Source: Cyanobacteria bacterium QS_4_48_99
GTDB taxonomy: Bacteria > Cyanobacteriota > Cyanobacteriia > Cyanobacteriales > Rubidibacteraceae
Length of the DNA stretch: 64,000 nt
Assembly (NCBI GenBank): GCA_003021505.1
Contig: PXPT01000166.1
Span: forward strand, 1-64,000
Reading direction: 5' to 3'
Positions 21,327-64,000 of the stretch are shown here, in pieces. The notes under the pieces are model-generated. The model ran no database searches. It was not told the origin of the DNA and was given only the letters and a program-made list of their open reading frames with translations. The translations under genes and the position numbers were made by a program. Numbering within the stretch: the stretch's first letter is position 1; each line of letters opens with the position of its first letter.

Positions 21327-21455
21327 CATACCCAATCCAGCCTAGCGGCAACTTGTGGGCATTATATTATTGGGCAGCCGATCAGAACCTATAGCTGCAC
21401 TAACTTACGCGCACGGTCAAAACGCGAGTCTTCTAGGCGGAATCCATCGGGATTG
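21327..21455. repeat. Direct repeat copy 1 (129 bp)
   Basis: About 90 percent identical by eye to 22241-22368. On the minus strand both copies end a reading frame with the tail GFRLEDSRF(D/A)RARKLVQL followed by TAG. The two copies bracket the Uma2 gene. Confidence 0.75.
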
Positions 21456-22240: not shown

Positions 22241-22368
22241 CATACCCCATCTAGCCTAGCGGCAACTTGGGGCATTCTACTATTGGGCACCCGATCAGAA
22301 CCTATAGCTGCACTAACTTACGCGCACGGGCAAAACGTGAGTCTTCTAGGCGGAACCCATTTCGATTG
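22241..22368. repeat. Direct repeat copy 2 (128 bp)
   Basis: The second copy of the element at 21327-21455. It abuts the truncated 3' end of the SIS pseudogene, whose reading frame runs into the repeat and stops within it. The minus strand again encodes GFRLEDSRFARARKLVQL plus TAG. Confidence 0.75.
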
Positions 22369-30654: not shown

Positions 30655-32607
30655 GTGGATGTGAGCAGAATCAGACTAGAGAGAGAAAGCTGCGTTAAGT
30701 GGAAAGTGAGGAAATGGCGACAAGGTCTCAGATTGCTCTCGTTCCCGCTACTACTGACAGCATTAATCAATCCCACCCATCTTGTAGTTACTCGGGCACA
30801 GGATCCACCAAAGCGGAACCTGGAAAGCTCGACTTCAGTACTCCAACAGGGTCGCCAAATCTCGCTCAATGGAAAACAAATCCCGGTTGCCTGGAGTCAA
30901 TGGCAGCAGGGCAACTCAGTACGCACCGGCATTAGTGACACTGCTGCTAAAAGGTTGGGGCTGAAACTTTTAAGCACGGACAACCCGAAAAAGCAGCCGA
31001 TACAGTGGTTCTCATCTTCGAGTTCGCCGCCGCTAGTTTTGCCAGCTCGACGAATAGGCGCTTATCGCTATTTAGATATTAGCAAGTTGCTCCAACGCAC
31101 AGATAGCCAGCTCCAAATTGTAGGGGACACCCTCAAAATCAACTCATCCCCAGTCAAAATCGAGAATATCCGCCTGGGAAATCACCCCTGGGGAAAGCGG
31201 ATTGTGGTGGATTTAAACCGCCCTACCTTTTGGCAGCTTCAGCCTGGAAAAAGTAAAGCTGCAATTACGTTTGAGGGTATCGCCAAGCCTGCTTTAATCA
31301 AGCGCTTTTCTACTACAAGGGAGCAGGGGAGCAGAGGAGCAGAGGGGCAGAGGGGCAGAGGAGAGGCTAACGCGCAGGGCATTATCCCCCCCCCACACCT
31401 CCACACCTCCGCACCTCCGCTTTTAGCTATCCAAAGCAGCGGGGAAAGAACTGACCTCCGCCTCAACATCCCAGATGGGTTAGGTTTGCAGGTGGAAACC
31501 CTCGCCCATCCCTATCGCCTTGTGATTGATCTTCGCGCCGAAGCTTTCAGCAAGCGGAAGATTCACTGGGCACAAGGATTATATTGGCATCGCAAGATTG
31601 TCACTCTAGAGCAGTCTAGCTTTCCGGTGGTATGGCTGGAAGTTGACCCTTCTTCCCCTTACCTTTCTCTCAAACCCATTCGGGGCAATTCCCATGCGAT
31701 GAAGGGTATCTCCCCACTGCTTCAGATGGCAAGGCGCAAGCAAGCGTCTGCTGCTATCAACGGTGGCTTTTTCAATCGCGACAACAAGCTGCCCTTGGGG
31801 GCAATTCGCCACCAGGATCGCTGGCTGTCTGGTCCCATTTTAAACCGAGGCGCGATCGCTTGGAATAACCAAGGAGAGATAAAAATTGGTCGTCTCAGTG
31901 TTGAGGAAACCCTAACGACTTCAGCAGGGCAGCGTCTTTCCATTCGCTTGCTCAACAGTGGCTACGTCCAAGCCGGTATTGCCCGTTATACCCCAGCGTG
32001 GGGAGATACCTATACCCCCTTGAGCGATCGCGAAATCATTGTTACCGTTCAGGATGAGCGAGTTACTGGTCAAATTTCTGGGGGTGAGGCAGGTCAAGTC
32101 TCCTTTCCTATTCCTTCGGACGGCTACTTACTTGCTCTGCGCTCCAACCAAACAGCAGCTAGCTTTCTTGAAGCTGGCACTTCCGTTCGTCTCGAAAGTA
32201 AGACGGTTCCAGCGGAGTTCGGTCGTTACCCCAACATCCTAGGGGCTGGTCCGCTACTGCTACAAAATAGTCAGCTAGTCCTCGATGCCAAAGCAGAAAA
32301 ATTTAGCGAAGCATTTCGAGAGGAAACTGCCCCCCGCAGCGTAATTGGAACTACCCAAAACCGCGATTTGATTATTGCTGCCATTGGTCGCTCTGCCGAC
32401 GGAGCCACCCCCACCCTAACCGAAACGGCACGGCTAATGCGGCAGTTAGGAGCGGCTGATGCTCTCAATCTAGATGGGGGTAACTCCGCCTCGCTTTACT
32501 TGGGCGGTCAATTGCTTAATCCCTCTCGGGCAACTTTTGGTCGCGTCCATAATGGTCTCGGTATCTTTGTTGAACCTTCTGCTGCTACTGCTGGTAAGGT
32601 TAACTAG
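30655..32607 (+). CDS. Phosphodiester glycosidase family exported protein
   Basis: A 650-residue protein. The basic N-terminus and a hydrophobic segment (about residues 22-42) indicate export. Residues about 50-330 are a cell-wall-associated, AMIN-like region (NHPWGKRIVVDLNRPTFWQL). The C-terminal half is a NAGPA/phosphodiester glycosidase domain with the signatures AAINGGFFNRDNKLPLGAI and ALNLDGGNSASLYLGG. Relatives cleave or modify exopolysaccharide or wall phosphodiesters; the substrate is unknown. The start is GTG at 30655 (a second GTG at 30661). Residues about 223-257 are a low-complexity insertion encoded by the dispersed G-rich/C-rich repeat, in frame (see the separate entry). Confidence 0.83.
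   Translation: MDVSRIRLERESCVKWKVRKWRQGLRLLSFPLLLTALINPTHLVVTRAQDPPKRNLESSTSVLQQGRQISLNGKQIPVAWSQWQQGNSVRTGISDTAAKRLGLKLLSTDNPKKQPIQWFSSSSSPPLVLPARRIGAYRYLDISKLLQRTDSQLQIVGDTLKINSSPVKIENIRLGNHPWGKRIVVDLNRPTFWQLQPGKSKAAITFEGIAKPALIKRFSTTREQGSRGAEGQRGRGEANAQGIIPPPHLHTSAPPLLAIQSSGERTDLRLNIPDGLGLQVETLAHPYRLVIDLRAEAFSKRKIHWAQGLYWHRKIVTLEQSSFPVVWLEVDPSSPYLSLKPIRGNSHAMKGISPLLQMARRKQASAAINGGFFNRDNKLPLGAIRHQDRWLSGPILNRGAIAWNNQGEIKIGRLSVEETLTTSAGQRLSIRLLNSGYVQAGIARYTPAWGDTYTPLSDREIIVTVQDERVTGQISGGEAGQVSFPIPSDGYLLALRSNQTAASFLEAGTSVRLESKTVPAEFGRYPNILGAGPLLLQNSQLVLDAKAEKFSEAFREETAPRSVIGTTQNRDLIIAAIGRSADGATPTLTETARLMRQLGAADALNLDGGNSASLYLGGQLLNPSRATFGRVHNGLGIFVEPSAATAGKVN
31318..31425. repeat. G-rich/C-rich repeat inserted within a gene
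   Basis: GGGAGCAGGGGAGCAGAGG followed by GGGGCAGAGG units, then CCCCCCCCACACCTCCACACC and CGCACCTCCGC. It is the same sequence type as the spacer elements at 38701, 49803, 57788 and 58541, but it sits inside the coding region, keeps the frame, and encodes a glycine/arginine/glutamate-rich then proline-rich stretch. Confidence 0.65.
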
Positions 32608-38700: not shown

Positions 38701-38862
38701 ATGGAGTCTGTATCGAGTTGGAATTGAGGGGTGGAGGTTGCACCAAGTGCGGAGGTGCGGAGGTTTCTGTGCAGAGGGGAGGAGGAGATGGTGGGCTTGT
38801 TTGCTCTCCTGCTCCCCTGCCCCTCTGCTTCCCTGCTCCCCTGCCCCTGGAGCTCCTCTACG
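38701..38862. repeat. G-rich/C-rich dispersed repeat element
   Basis: A purine-rich arm (GTGCGGAGGTGCGGAGG, GTGCAGAGGGGAGGAGG), the core GGGCTTGTTTGCTC, and a pyrimidine arm (CCTGCTCCCCTGCCCCTCTGC). The arms can fold back on each other. It fills most of the rpsJ-LON domain gene spacer (38682-39008); the remainder shows no ORF. Confidence 0.6.
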
Positions 38863-49802: not shown

Positions 49803-50020
49803 AAGGGAGCTAGAGGGGCAGGGGAAAAGACGCGGGGACGCGGAGAGCAGAGGAGCAGGGGAAGCAGGGAAGAAGTGAGAGCGTGAGAGCGTGAGAGCGT
49901 GAGAGAGTTGGGGAAGCAGGGAGGTAGAGGAGAGACTAACGCACTCGGAAACTATTTCCCCTCTGCACCTACCACCTCTGCGCCTCTGCACAGAAACCTC
50001 CTCATCCCTCACTCCTGACT
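49803..50020. repeat. G-rich/C-rich repeat between photolyase and epimerase
   Basis: Contains GGGCAGGGGAAAAG, GGAGAGCAGAGGAGCAGGGG, three tandem copies of AGAGCGTG (about 49878-49901), then CCCCTCTGCACC and CCTCTGCACAGAAACC. It is oriented opposite to the elements at 38701 and 58541 and fills the convergent spacer. Confidence 0.6.
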
Positions 50021-58540: not shown

Positions 58541-58712
58541 CAAGTGAGGAGTGAGGAGGTGTTCTGTGCAGAGGTGCTCCAGGTGCGGAGGAGAGGAATT
58601 GATCTGCTTGTTTTTCCTTTGCCCCTCTGCTCCCCTGCTTCCCCAGCTCCCCCTGCTTTCCCAACCCTCTCACGCTCTCACGCGCTCACGCCTCACTTTC
58701 CCAACTCCCCGC
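58541..58712. repeat. G-rich/C-rich dispersed repeat element
   Basis: AAGTGAGGAGTGAGGAGG, TCTGTGCAGAGG, AGGTGCGGAGGAGAGG, the core TTGATCTGCTTGTTT, then CCCCTCTGCTCCCCTGC and CCCTCTCACGCTCTCACGC. The core matches the element at 598-681 closely. Confidence 0.6.
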
Positions 58713-60700: not shown

Positions 60701-61738
60701 ATGAAGCATAAAGTACCTTATCAACCTCCCTGGTATCTCAAGAATGGCTTGTTTCAAACTCTAGCCACCAGCTTCTGGTATGGAAAGAGCTGGCAACGCT
60801 GGGGGAATGGGGTTCGGTGGTTATCTCACCTGCCCGTTGTTCGGTGGCAGGAGAAAGTGTTTACCGGGGCGGAGGATGTGCCTTTATGGGGATTGTGGAG
60901 TTGTCCAAACCCGGCAAAAGCCACTCTCATTATTAACTATGGCATTACAGGAGAGACAGATAATGCCTGGTACGCTCACGTCCTTGCACGTAAAGCCTAC
61001 GCAAGGGGTTGGGCAGTGTTGCTCTACGATTGGCGAGGTCACGGTAAGAGCGCGGAACTCTCGCCTGTGCCCACTTCGGATGGCTGGCGGGAAGGGGTTG
61101 ACCAAGTGAAGTTGGCACAGCAGTTAGTGGATTTGGGATGTCCAGCAGCAGTGGCACTGGCCGGCTTTTCTCTGGGAGGACAGTTAGTTCTGTGGGGATT
61201 GAAGGCAGCAGTGGAAGAAGACAGTGCTTTGATTCTCACCGGTGCGGTACTTTCTCCCAATCTGGAATCCAATCGTTCTCTAGACTATTTGACTACCAAG
61301 CCCGCTGGAAGGATAATTGAGCAGGCTTTGACCAATCAGTTACGCACTGAGGCAAACAAACGTCGGGAACGCTTCCCGGAAGCAGTTAAACCAGCGGCAG
61401 TGGAGCGAGTGGACTCGATTCGGGCGTTTGACCGAGAGATGGTGATTAATTACTACGGGTTCGCTAGTGTGAGTGAATACTATCAAAAGACCAGTGGGCT
61501 CTACCTGTTGAATCGGTTGGAGTTGCCTTATCTGGTGATTTATGCAGGGGATGACCCCATGTTTGATCCAGCCTTAGTGCCAGAGATAGAACGGCGCGTG
61601 AGTTGTAATCGGTATGGTCATTTAATGTTGACTCCTCAAGGGGGTCATGTGTCTCATATTGCGGCAAAGACAGGTTTAGAAGATGAGTTTTGGGGTCTCA
61701 ATCGGTTGCTGGAGTTTTGCGAGGAGCAGGTGGAGTAG
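60701..61738 (+). CDS. Alpha/beta hydrolase, YheT-like
   Basis: A 345-residue alpha/beta-fold hydrolase of the YheT (COG0429-type) family. The nucleophile elbow is AGFSLGGQ; the acid is Asp in YAGDDPMFDP and the histidine is in TPQGGHVSHIA. An oxyanion-hole segment INYGITGETDNAWY and LLYDWRGHGKSAEL precede. There is no signal peptide. Relatives are predicted esterases acting on membrane lipids; the substrate is unknown. The gene stands alone, facing the kinase gene convergently. Confidence 0.87.
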   Translation: MKHKVPYQPPWYLKNGLFQTLATSFWYGKSWQRWGNGVRWLSHLPVVRWQEKVFTGAEDVPLWGLWSCPNPAKATLIINYGITGETDNAWYAHVLARKAYARGWAVLLYDWRGHGKSAELSPVPTSDGWREGVDQVKLAQQLVDLGCPAAVALAGFSLGGQLVLWGLKAAVEEDSALILTGAVLSPNLESNRSLDYLTTKPAGRIIEQALTNQLRTEANKRRERFPEAVKPAAVERVDSIRAFDREMVINYYGFASVSEYYQKTSGLYLLNRLELPYLVIYAGDDPMFDPALVPEIERRVSCNRYGHLMLTPQGGHVSHIAAKTGLEDEFWGLNRLLEFCEEQVE

Positions 61739-61767
61739 GGGGAGCGGAGGGGCAGAGGAGCAGAATA

Positions 61768-61797: not shown

Positions 61798-61834
61798 GCT
61801 CATCCCGCAGCGGTGCAACGCCAAAAAAGGTAGT

Positions 61835-64000
61835 CTAGTTGTCCTTCTTGTCCTTCTTGTCCTTCTTGTCCTTCTTGTCCTTGTCTTCTTTGTCTTCCTT
61901 GTCTTCATCTTCTTGTTTTGATTCCAGTTCGCGCTGTGCCTGCTCTTTTTTCTTCTGGGCTTTTTTATAATCGGGTTGATAGCGCAGGGCTTTGTCGTAG
62001 GAAGCGATCGCGTCTTTGTATAGCTCTAAGTTAAACAGGGCATTGCCTCGGCTATACCAGGCTTGATAGTAGTCGCTTTGGAGGTCAGTAGCTCGCTTGT
62101 AAGCCGCGATCGCTTTTCGATATTTGCCTAAATTATAGAGAGCATTGCCCTTGCTAGACCAAACTTGAGCATCGTCATCTTCTAATTTCAGCGCTTTCTG
62201 GTAAGAATCAACCGCATCGGCGTAGCGCTTTAGTTGATGGAGTGCCCAACCGCGACCATACCAGGCTTCGTAGGAGTTGGGATTAAACTCAACTGCCTGG
62301 TCAAATGCTTCCACTGCCTCTTCATACCGTTGCAAATGATTTCGCGCACTCCCCAGACTATACCAGGCTTGTGAGAACTTGGGCTGGAATTCTACTGCTT
62401 TCTCGTAGGATTCCACTGCTTTTTTGTACTCCTGCAAATTCATTAAGGCATTGCCCCGCTGATACCAGCTAAAGTGAGCATCAGGCTTCAACTCCACCGC
62501 TTTGTCGTAAGACTCAACCGCATCCTCATACCGTTGCAAATTGTGCAGTGCCCAGCCGCGCGACTGCCAAGCGGAAGCATCCTCTGGTTGTAAATCCAGC
62601 GCTTTCTCAAAAGAAGAGATCGCTTCTGAATATTGCTGCAACTGGAGTTGGGCGTTCCCTTGTCCCTTCCATGCCTCCACCTCTTTAGGCTCGCGTTGAA
62701 TGACCTCATCAAAAGCAGCGATCGCTTCTTCATAGCGCTGCAAAACTGCAAGTGCCTGGGCGCGACCTAACCAAGCTGGCGTTGACTCAGGCTGGAGTTG
62801 AATGGCTTCGTCATAGGCTGCGAGGGCATCTTCGCTGCGATTCAAAGCTTGCAGCGCATCGCCTTGCCCAATCCAGGCTTGGTGCATATTCGGTCGAATT
62901 TCCAGCGCTTGTTGGTAAGATCTGAGGGCATCTTTGTAGCGATTCAACTCATAGAGAGTATCGCCCCGATTCTCCAACTCCTTGGCATTCGCAGAATCCA
63001 TAAAGTGGCTAATCGAGATTGCTGCCGCTGCACCCACGCCTAATACCCCAAGAGTAACTAACCCGATAGGTAGCCAGGAATGCGATCGCTTGGGCTTCTC
63101 TACCTCAGACTTTTCTACCTCAGAAGCAGCGGATGGACGCGCTGGCGACACGGCGAAGGTAGCGCCAGTAGCAGTATTCAACCCTTGCAGCGCTTGCAGA
63201 GCCTCCGTTGCTGAGGAGTAACGCTGCCGAAAGTCATAGCGCACCATTTGATCTAAAACTTGGGCGAACTCAGAGCTAACCGTTGCCTGCTCGTTCCAGC
63301 TAATTTCACCCGTTTCTGGATGAGTGGACAGTTGCTCTGGAGGGCAACCGGTGAGGGCTTGAATGCCGATAATTCCCACTGCATAGACATCGCTACTTAA
63401 TTTCGGATCACCGTTGGCTTGTTCGCTGGGACGGTAGCCAGGAGTGCCAATCGCGATGGTGAAGTTCGTCTTTTTCTGCGAAACGACTTGGGTGCTGACT
63501 TGTTTAACTGCACCGAAATCAATTAAAACTAACTTGCCGTCTTGTTTGCGTCGGAGGAAGTTGTGCGGATTGACATCGCGGTGAATCACATTCTGCTGAT
63601 GAACGAATGCTAAGATTTCGAAGATATCTCGCAACAGAGAATGGACTTCCGCCTCACTTCTGACTCCCCCTTGGTTAAGTTCTTCAGCTAGCTCCTCACC
63701 TTCGATGTATTCCTGAACCAGATAAAACTCTTGATTTTGCTCAAAGTAAGCCAAAAGCCGAGGAATTTGTGCGTGAGTTCCCAGGCGATCTAGCGTTTGG
63801 GCTTCCGTATCAAACAGCCGCCTCGCGGTTTCCAAGCTTAGTGAGTCAGATGCTTGCGGTTTGAGTTGTTTGACTACGCACTGTTGGTTCCCTGGTAAGT
63901 GCTGATCTTCTGCTAGGAAAGTTGTACCAAATCCCCCTTGCCCAAGCTGAGAGAGAATTTGGTAACGTCCACTGAGTTGTTGTCCAGAAGCCAAATTCAT
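61835..64000 (-). CDS. Ser/Thr protein kinase with TPR domain
   Basis: A 721-residue Pkn2-type kinase. The ATP loop LGQGGFGTTFLAED, Lys44 in CVVK, Glu66, the catalytic loop HRDVNPHN (Asp142) and DFG (Asp161) are present, with an APE-like GTPGYRPSEQ. The residue normally Lys in HRDxKxxN is Asn144. A membrane helix (about 308-334) follows, then ten TPR units of 34 residues (about 340-690), each starting A-W-x-x-x-G, and an acidic-lysine tail of repeated KDK units encoded by a nine-base tandem repeat (about 61838-61885). The TPRs would lie outside the membrane on the other side from the kinase and sense or bind partners. The ATG coincides with the window edge, so an upstream start cannot be excluded. 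Confidence 0.92.
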   Translation of the reverse strand: MNLASGQQLSGRYQILSQLGQGGFGTTFLAEDQHLPGNQQCVVKQLKPQASDSLSLETARRLFDTEAQTLDRLGTHAQIPRLLAYFEQNQEFYLVQEYIEGEELAEELNQGGVRSEAEVHSLLRDIFEILAFVHQQNVIHRDVNPHNFLRRKQDGKLVLIDFGAVKQVSTQVVSQKKTNFTIAIGTPGYRPSEQANGDPKLSSDVYAVGIIGIQALTGCPPEQLSTHPETGEISWNEQATVSSEFAQVLDQMVRYDFRQRYSSATEALQALQGLNTATGATFAVSPARPSAASEVEKSEVEKPKRSHSWLPIGLVTLGVLGVGAAAAISISHFMDSANAKELENRGDTLYELNRYKDALRSYQQALEIRPNMHQAWIGQGDALQALNRSEDALAAYDEAIQLQPESTPAWLGRAQALAVLQRYEEAIAAFDEVIQREPKEVEAWKGQGNAQLQLQQYSEAISSFEKALDLQPEDASAWQSRGWALHNLQRYEDAVESYDKAVELKPDAHFSWYQRGNALMNLQEYKKAVESYEKAVEFQPKFSQAWYSLGSARNHLQRYEEAVEAFDQAVEFNPNSYEAWYGRGWALHQLKRYADAVDSYQKALKLEDDDAQVWSSKGNALYNLGKYRKAIAAYKRATDLQSDYYQAWYSRGNALFNLELYKDAIASYDKALRYQPDYKKAQKKKEQAQRELESKQEDEDKEDKEDKDKKDKKDKKDKKDN
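61838..61885 (-). repeat. Nine-base tandem repeat at kinase 3' end
   Basis: About five copies of TCCTTCTTG (plus strand), with degenerate neighbours to 61915, encoding alternating Lys-Asp runs. A microsatellite-like tract that could change length by slippage. Confidence 0.7.

Follow-up and report, generated by a model that had tools for sequence, protein, structure and literature searches.

Dispersed octamer-based repeats read in frame in about 30 predicted genes of a cyanobacterial genome

A repeat-bearing NAGPA-domain gene

The window analysed here, a stretch of 64,000 nucleotides from Cyanobacteria bacterium QS_4_48_99, contains a 650-codon gene for a putatively exported protein, which has a signal-peptide-like N terminus by inspection. 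The gene is single copy, as a search of its own genome yielded only one full-length match, and it carries within its open reading frame a copy of a repeat that is also found elsewhere in the window and the genome. The features of the gene are as follows:

30655–32607, plus strand: host gene, 650 aa, with a NAGPA domain (phosphodiester glycosidase family); 650-codon ORF and Pfam
31315–31420, plus strand: in-frame dispersed element, about 106 nt or about 36 codons; profile R1, E=1.2e-21
31315–31362, plus strand: purine-rich octamer arm of GGAGCAGA/GGGGAGCA units; direct repeats with a spacing of 8
31363–31389, plus strand: core, a variant of GAGAGGCTAACGCRCTCCGAAACTATTTCCCC; alignment of element copies
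31390–31420, plus strand: pyrimidine-rich arm of GCACCTCC units; sequence, inverted repeat and alignment of copies
32056–32569, plus strand: NAGPA catalytic domain, residues 468–638; Pfam, E=7.7e-33

A sequence-only reading of the window had placed a G-rich repeat inside this coding gene at 31318–31425, which was confirmed to within a few bases. The same reading had put the repeat between a wall-like region and a catalytic domain. The catalytic domain was identified as NAGPA; the wall-like region is at most a candidate, Pfam giving only a sub-threshold AMIN match at residues 264–297. The element encodes REQGSRGAEGQRGRGEANAQGIIPPPHLHTSAPP, corresponding to residues ~221–256 of the 650-residue protein. 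In an AlphaFold2 model built with 21 sequences, pLDDT was below 50 at residues 222–252 and about 85–90 on either side, and a beta-rich domain was predicted at residues 61–217. Residues 222–252 are thus modeled as a disordered segment between folded parts.

Make-up and dispersal of the element

Copies of the element are roughly 90–110 bp long and consist of a purine-rich octamer arm (GGAGCAGA/GGGGAGCA), a core and a pyrimidine-rich arm, (GCACCTCC)n. The core, of 25–30 nt, occurs in two variants and is common to most full-length copies, both genic and intergenic. A BLAST search with a 110-nt segment of the window as query returned 48 matches in the own genome. Profile R1, built from an alignment of 16 complete copies and applied with a cut-off of E<=0.01, returned 109 matches in the own 3.62-Mb genome and none in eight other genomes of the family. 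In an order-wide sample of 60 genomes, 15 had profile matches (the own genome included), those in the other genomes being weaker and frequently confined to the purine arm. The counts for the own genome rest on searches and on fetched stretches, and a reversed-pattern control was not neutral because the pattern matches another repeat module (GGGGACGC). The earlier description of the repeat as dispersed was upheld by copies throughout the genome and by three further copies in the window:

38745–38846, minus strand: non-genic copy adjoining a ribosomal-operon gene; R1, E=2.4e-8
49911–49986, plus strand: intergenic copy; R1, E=3.8e-16
58566–58650, minus strand: intergenic copy; R1, E=1.4e-9

An antisense open frame around the copy at 38745 was set aside as apparently spurious, as it crosses the ribosomal-operon gene antisense.

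Several other repeats were seen alongside the element. Neighboring modules often stood in a fixed order, with GTGAGAGC arrays, GGGGACGC/GGGGACAA arrays and the element followed by ACAGAAACCTCCTCACTCCTCAC and AACCTGCAACCTGCAAC, and some of these modules were also read in frame (GTRGHGDT..., and SSLLTPHSS in SMC, LdpA and FolC). The window also held a nonamer tandem array, TTGTCCTTC, at 61830–61901, where a minus-strand ORF ends, an octamer array close to it at 61732–61766, and a direct repeat of ~100 nt in two copies (21357–21455 and 22270–22368) that were 91% identical and 913 nt apart.

Arrays of short units can raise the question of local growth, in which an octamer array would have arisen separately in each gene through replication slippage and without a mobile element. 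Several genic sites that consist of the G-rich octamer arm only (C117:17419, C51:72842 and C1:7602) and the presence of octamer arrays in many other cyanobacterial genera are in keeping with this. However, the shared core would have had to arise independently at dozens of loci, which is implausible and largely refutes slippage for full copies; the core points instead to spread from common sources. As an account of the element, slippage is improbable.

Host genes, empty sites and reading frame

The flanking DNA of about 105 sites was inspected, and a site was considered genic where an open frame ran for 75 residues or more past both ends of the element. By this measure 32 of the approximately 105 sites, representing 31 ORFs, lay in long open frames. 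Pfam matches were obtained for 29 of the 30 host ORFs scanned (the window gene apart), and many of these were core enzymes. The hosts included carB, PEP carboxylase (PEPC), murD, lysA, nadE (NAD synthase), cobN and thiO, along with SMC, RecJ, MiaA, a TrpE-type enzyme, LdpA, dihydroorotase and a nitrate-reductase-type molybdoprotein. One tRNA-nucleotidyltransferase-type host (locus L169; C166:121162–121441, beyond the window), with DHH, CBS and poly-A-polymerase/tRNA-nucleotidyltransferase domains, had two in-frame copies about 50 residues apart.

Nineteen of the host genes, the window gene not among them, were compared with relatives fetched from genomes of the family. In all 19 the host protein was longer, by a median of 34 residues, and the matching segment in the relatives was a variable loop with a median length of 13 residues, while the flanks of the insert were mostly 50–95% identical between host and relatives. 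The MenE-type host is a weaker case since its extra length was small (5–10 residues), as are SMC, SucC and LdpA, in which flank conservation was weak on one side. In CarB the insert lies between the counterparts of E. coli residues 655 and 660, and in PEPC, which a search showed to be single copy in the own genome, it lies directly before QEVMLGYSDS. Because these 19 genes have empty sites in relatives, the general proposal that the element can enter genes and be tolerated, originally made from the window gene, is settled in its favor. Chance open frames were also considered as an explanation for the genic copies and were ruled out by the empty-site orthologues. On these sequence comparisons, repeat DNA is turned into predicted protein, with in-frame copies in about 30 genes, each contributing a predicted flexible loop of about 30 residues that relatives are without.

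The genic copies were strongly biased in orientation, the purine arm leading on the coding strand at 31 of the 32 sites (31 forward to 1 reverse; binomial P=1.5e-6 against the 60% forward expected from open frames in non-genic copies, an expectation that takes stop codons into account). The sole reverse site, in MiaA (C83:21195), added only about four residues and is doubtful. The octamer is translated as GAEEQRSR in the forward direction and as SAPLLLCS in reverse, in each case as an identical cyclic octapeptide in every frame. In whatever phase it is read, the forward octapeptide (SRGAEEQR) is hydrophilic and without stops, whereas the reverse one is hydrophobic and contains cysteine. Since a unit of 8 nt yields the same cyclic octapeptide whatever the phase, the element is almost frame-agnostic in coding, and this accounts for the use of all three phases in the genes at about equal frequency (11:10:9 for the G arm and 7:6:6 for the C arm). 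We infer that the orientation bias stems from purifying selection on the proteins, with an insertion preference as the alternative.

Tolerance of the inserts could also be explained if they were excised from the RNA or the protein, in the manner of an intron or intein, and the proximity of some inserts to conserved motifs, as in PEPC, would suit such removal. Nevertheless, no splicing domain or intron structure was found, the inserted sequence is degenerate and read in every phase, the insertion sites are variable loops, and the strong bias towards the hydrophilic reading is not something that removal would need, all of which make excision very unlikely.

The window gene itself was examined in an alignment of its protein with 63 orthologue rows, including a few duplicates, that came from other genomes. 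The position of the element corresponds in orthologues to a hypervariable linker of about 10–60 residues that is usually Pro-rich, and the window protein minus its 36 element codons would resemble the short-linker orthologues. The SRGA and PHLxTS peptides of the element occurred in 0 of the 63 rows; this agrees with the expectation that orthologues would lack these linker residues, although the linker varies in any case. Among the same rows, none came from a distant genus having the same linker with no repeat nearby. Taken alone, and judged from the sequence, the window gene may represent a replacement instead of a clean insertion, given the variability of the linker. A functional low-complexity linker of old, vertical descent, whose resemblance to the spacer repeats is due to chance, would fit the Pro-rich variable linker at this position in orthologues, but it has next to no probability when no orthologue row contains the element peptide and the same DNA recurs at dozens of unrelated loci of the own genome but in none of the eight family relatives.

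Spread of the element and its relation to known repeats

The reading that we consider very probable is that a lineage-specific dispersed repeat has spread between and into genes, giving rise to tolerated disordered loops. Under this proposal, an element of roughly 90–110 bp would spread through the genome into intergenic and genic positions, and a genic copy would survive if it were net in frame, if its purine arm came first on the coding strand, so that the encoded peptide was hydrophilic and free of stops (SRGAEEQ..., then ...PPHLRTSAPP), and if it landed in a variable loop or linker. The outcome would be a translated loop, long and disordered, that is tolerated and that the protein presumably retains.

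Movement may have occurred by a DNA mobility process, a Y1/IS200-type transposase and recombination from repeat to repeat being possible routes. The ends of the element differ from copy to copy, with copies fused to further repeat modules. Neither target-site duplications nor fixed ends were seen by inspection, which is a weak test made without close empty-site DNA. Six matches to Y1 transposases were found in the own genome, and no link between these and the element was found. One of the six is a Y1/IS200-type transposase gene at C166:64722–65072 (locus L295), just past the right end of the window. A hairpin or palindrome was rejected as a defining feature, as the window copy had a z of -0.25 against shuffles, although its arms could pair; in the alignment of copies the consensus fold was weak, and covariation and compensatory pairs were absent.

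In-frame "selfish" insertions in housekeeping genes are best known from the intracellular bacteria Rickettsia and Wolbachia. The Rickettsia palindromic elements (RPE; Ogata et al.) and their Wolbachia counterparts, the protein-coding palindromes, as described in two reports, are small dispersed repeats that lie in frame within housekeeping genes unrelated to one another, for the most part at positions without structure, and that have a recognizable peptide, a sizeable share of the copies being genic (PMC10969869, PMC2996958). The cyanobacterial element behaves similarly in being multi-copy and in frame in unrelated genes (32 sites in 31 ORFs), and its insertion positions may also be comparable, judging by the variable segments in relatives, the predicted disorder in the window protein and the 655/660 site in CarB. 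It differs from RPE in consisting of tandem octamers, such that the peptide is identical in all frames, in lacking a hairpin above shuffles, in having essentially one orientation in genes and in residing in a free-living host.

Within the cyanobacteria, Elhai et al. (2008) reportedly described short tandemly repeated repetitive (STRR) sequences and small dispersed repeats (SDR) in Nostoc-type species, in which short dispersed cores are said to lie within short tandem arrays. The element resembles these in having a short dispersed core between short tandem arrays in a cyanobacterium; it differs from the Nostoc STRR in its unit of 8 nt rather than a heptamer, and from STRR and SDR in its many in-frame genic copies. 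Dispersed repeats of other kinds are already known in cyanobacteria (PMC4390886, PMC4692102, PMC4666352), among them the G-rich heptamer repeats of Nostoc, which also occur in Xanthomonas (PMC4692102), and triplex-type G/C-rich motifs (PMC4666352). The element shares with both its G-richness, strand asymmetry and dispersal in cyanobacterial genomes. However, the Nostoc heptamer was reported to be under-represented in coding regions (PMC4692102), while the element has a strong in-frame coding subset. A MITE has terminal inverted repeats, a target-site duplication and fixed ends; in the element the ends varied between copies and inspection showed no duplication, a weak comparison made without close empty-site DNA. 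In a literature search of incomplete coverage, no account was found of repeats carried in frame by the housekeeping genes of cyanobacteria.

Forty matches were fetched from other Cyanobacteriales genomes, of which 15, from eight genomes, were in long ORFs by ORF position alone, all 15 with the purine arm first. Ten of these hosts were scanned, and RecJ, a MutS2-like protein, a TrpE-type enzyme and TPR-CHAT proteins were among them. The PEPC of one genome (G049, locus L245) had an octamer-like insert (RGAEGQKASGAEETKGRN...) that is independent of the insert in the own-genome PEPC and lies in the same loop, and that of another (G048, locus L244) had a long unusual insert there too. The PEPC loop looks like a hotspot for repeat insertion. 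We speculate, with rather less than even confidence, that across Cyanobacteriales new disordered protein loops have a general source in purine-first octamer elements, which would have evolved repeatedly. On that speculation, an octamer that is stop-free and gives the same peptide in every frame would survive unusually well, and protein selection would thereby have shaped which repeat DNA spreads.

These findings extend in-frame "selfish" insertion to a cyanobacterium and to central enzymes, PEP carboxylase and carbamoyl-phosphate synthase among them. The octamer make-up offers a simple, testable reason for a repeat being able to enter genes whatever the frame. With so many examples in a single genome, both the tolerance of loops and the way in which disordered regions originate can be tested directly.
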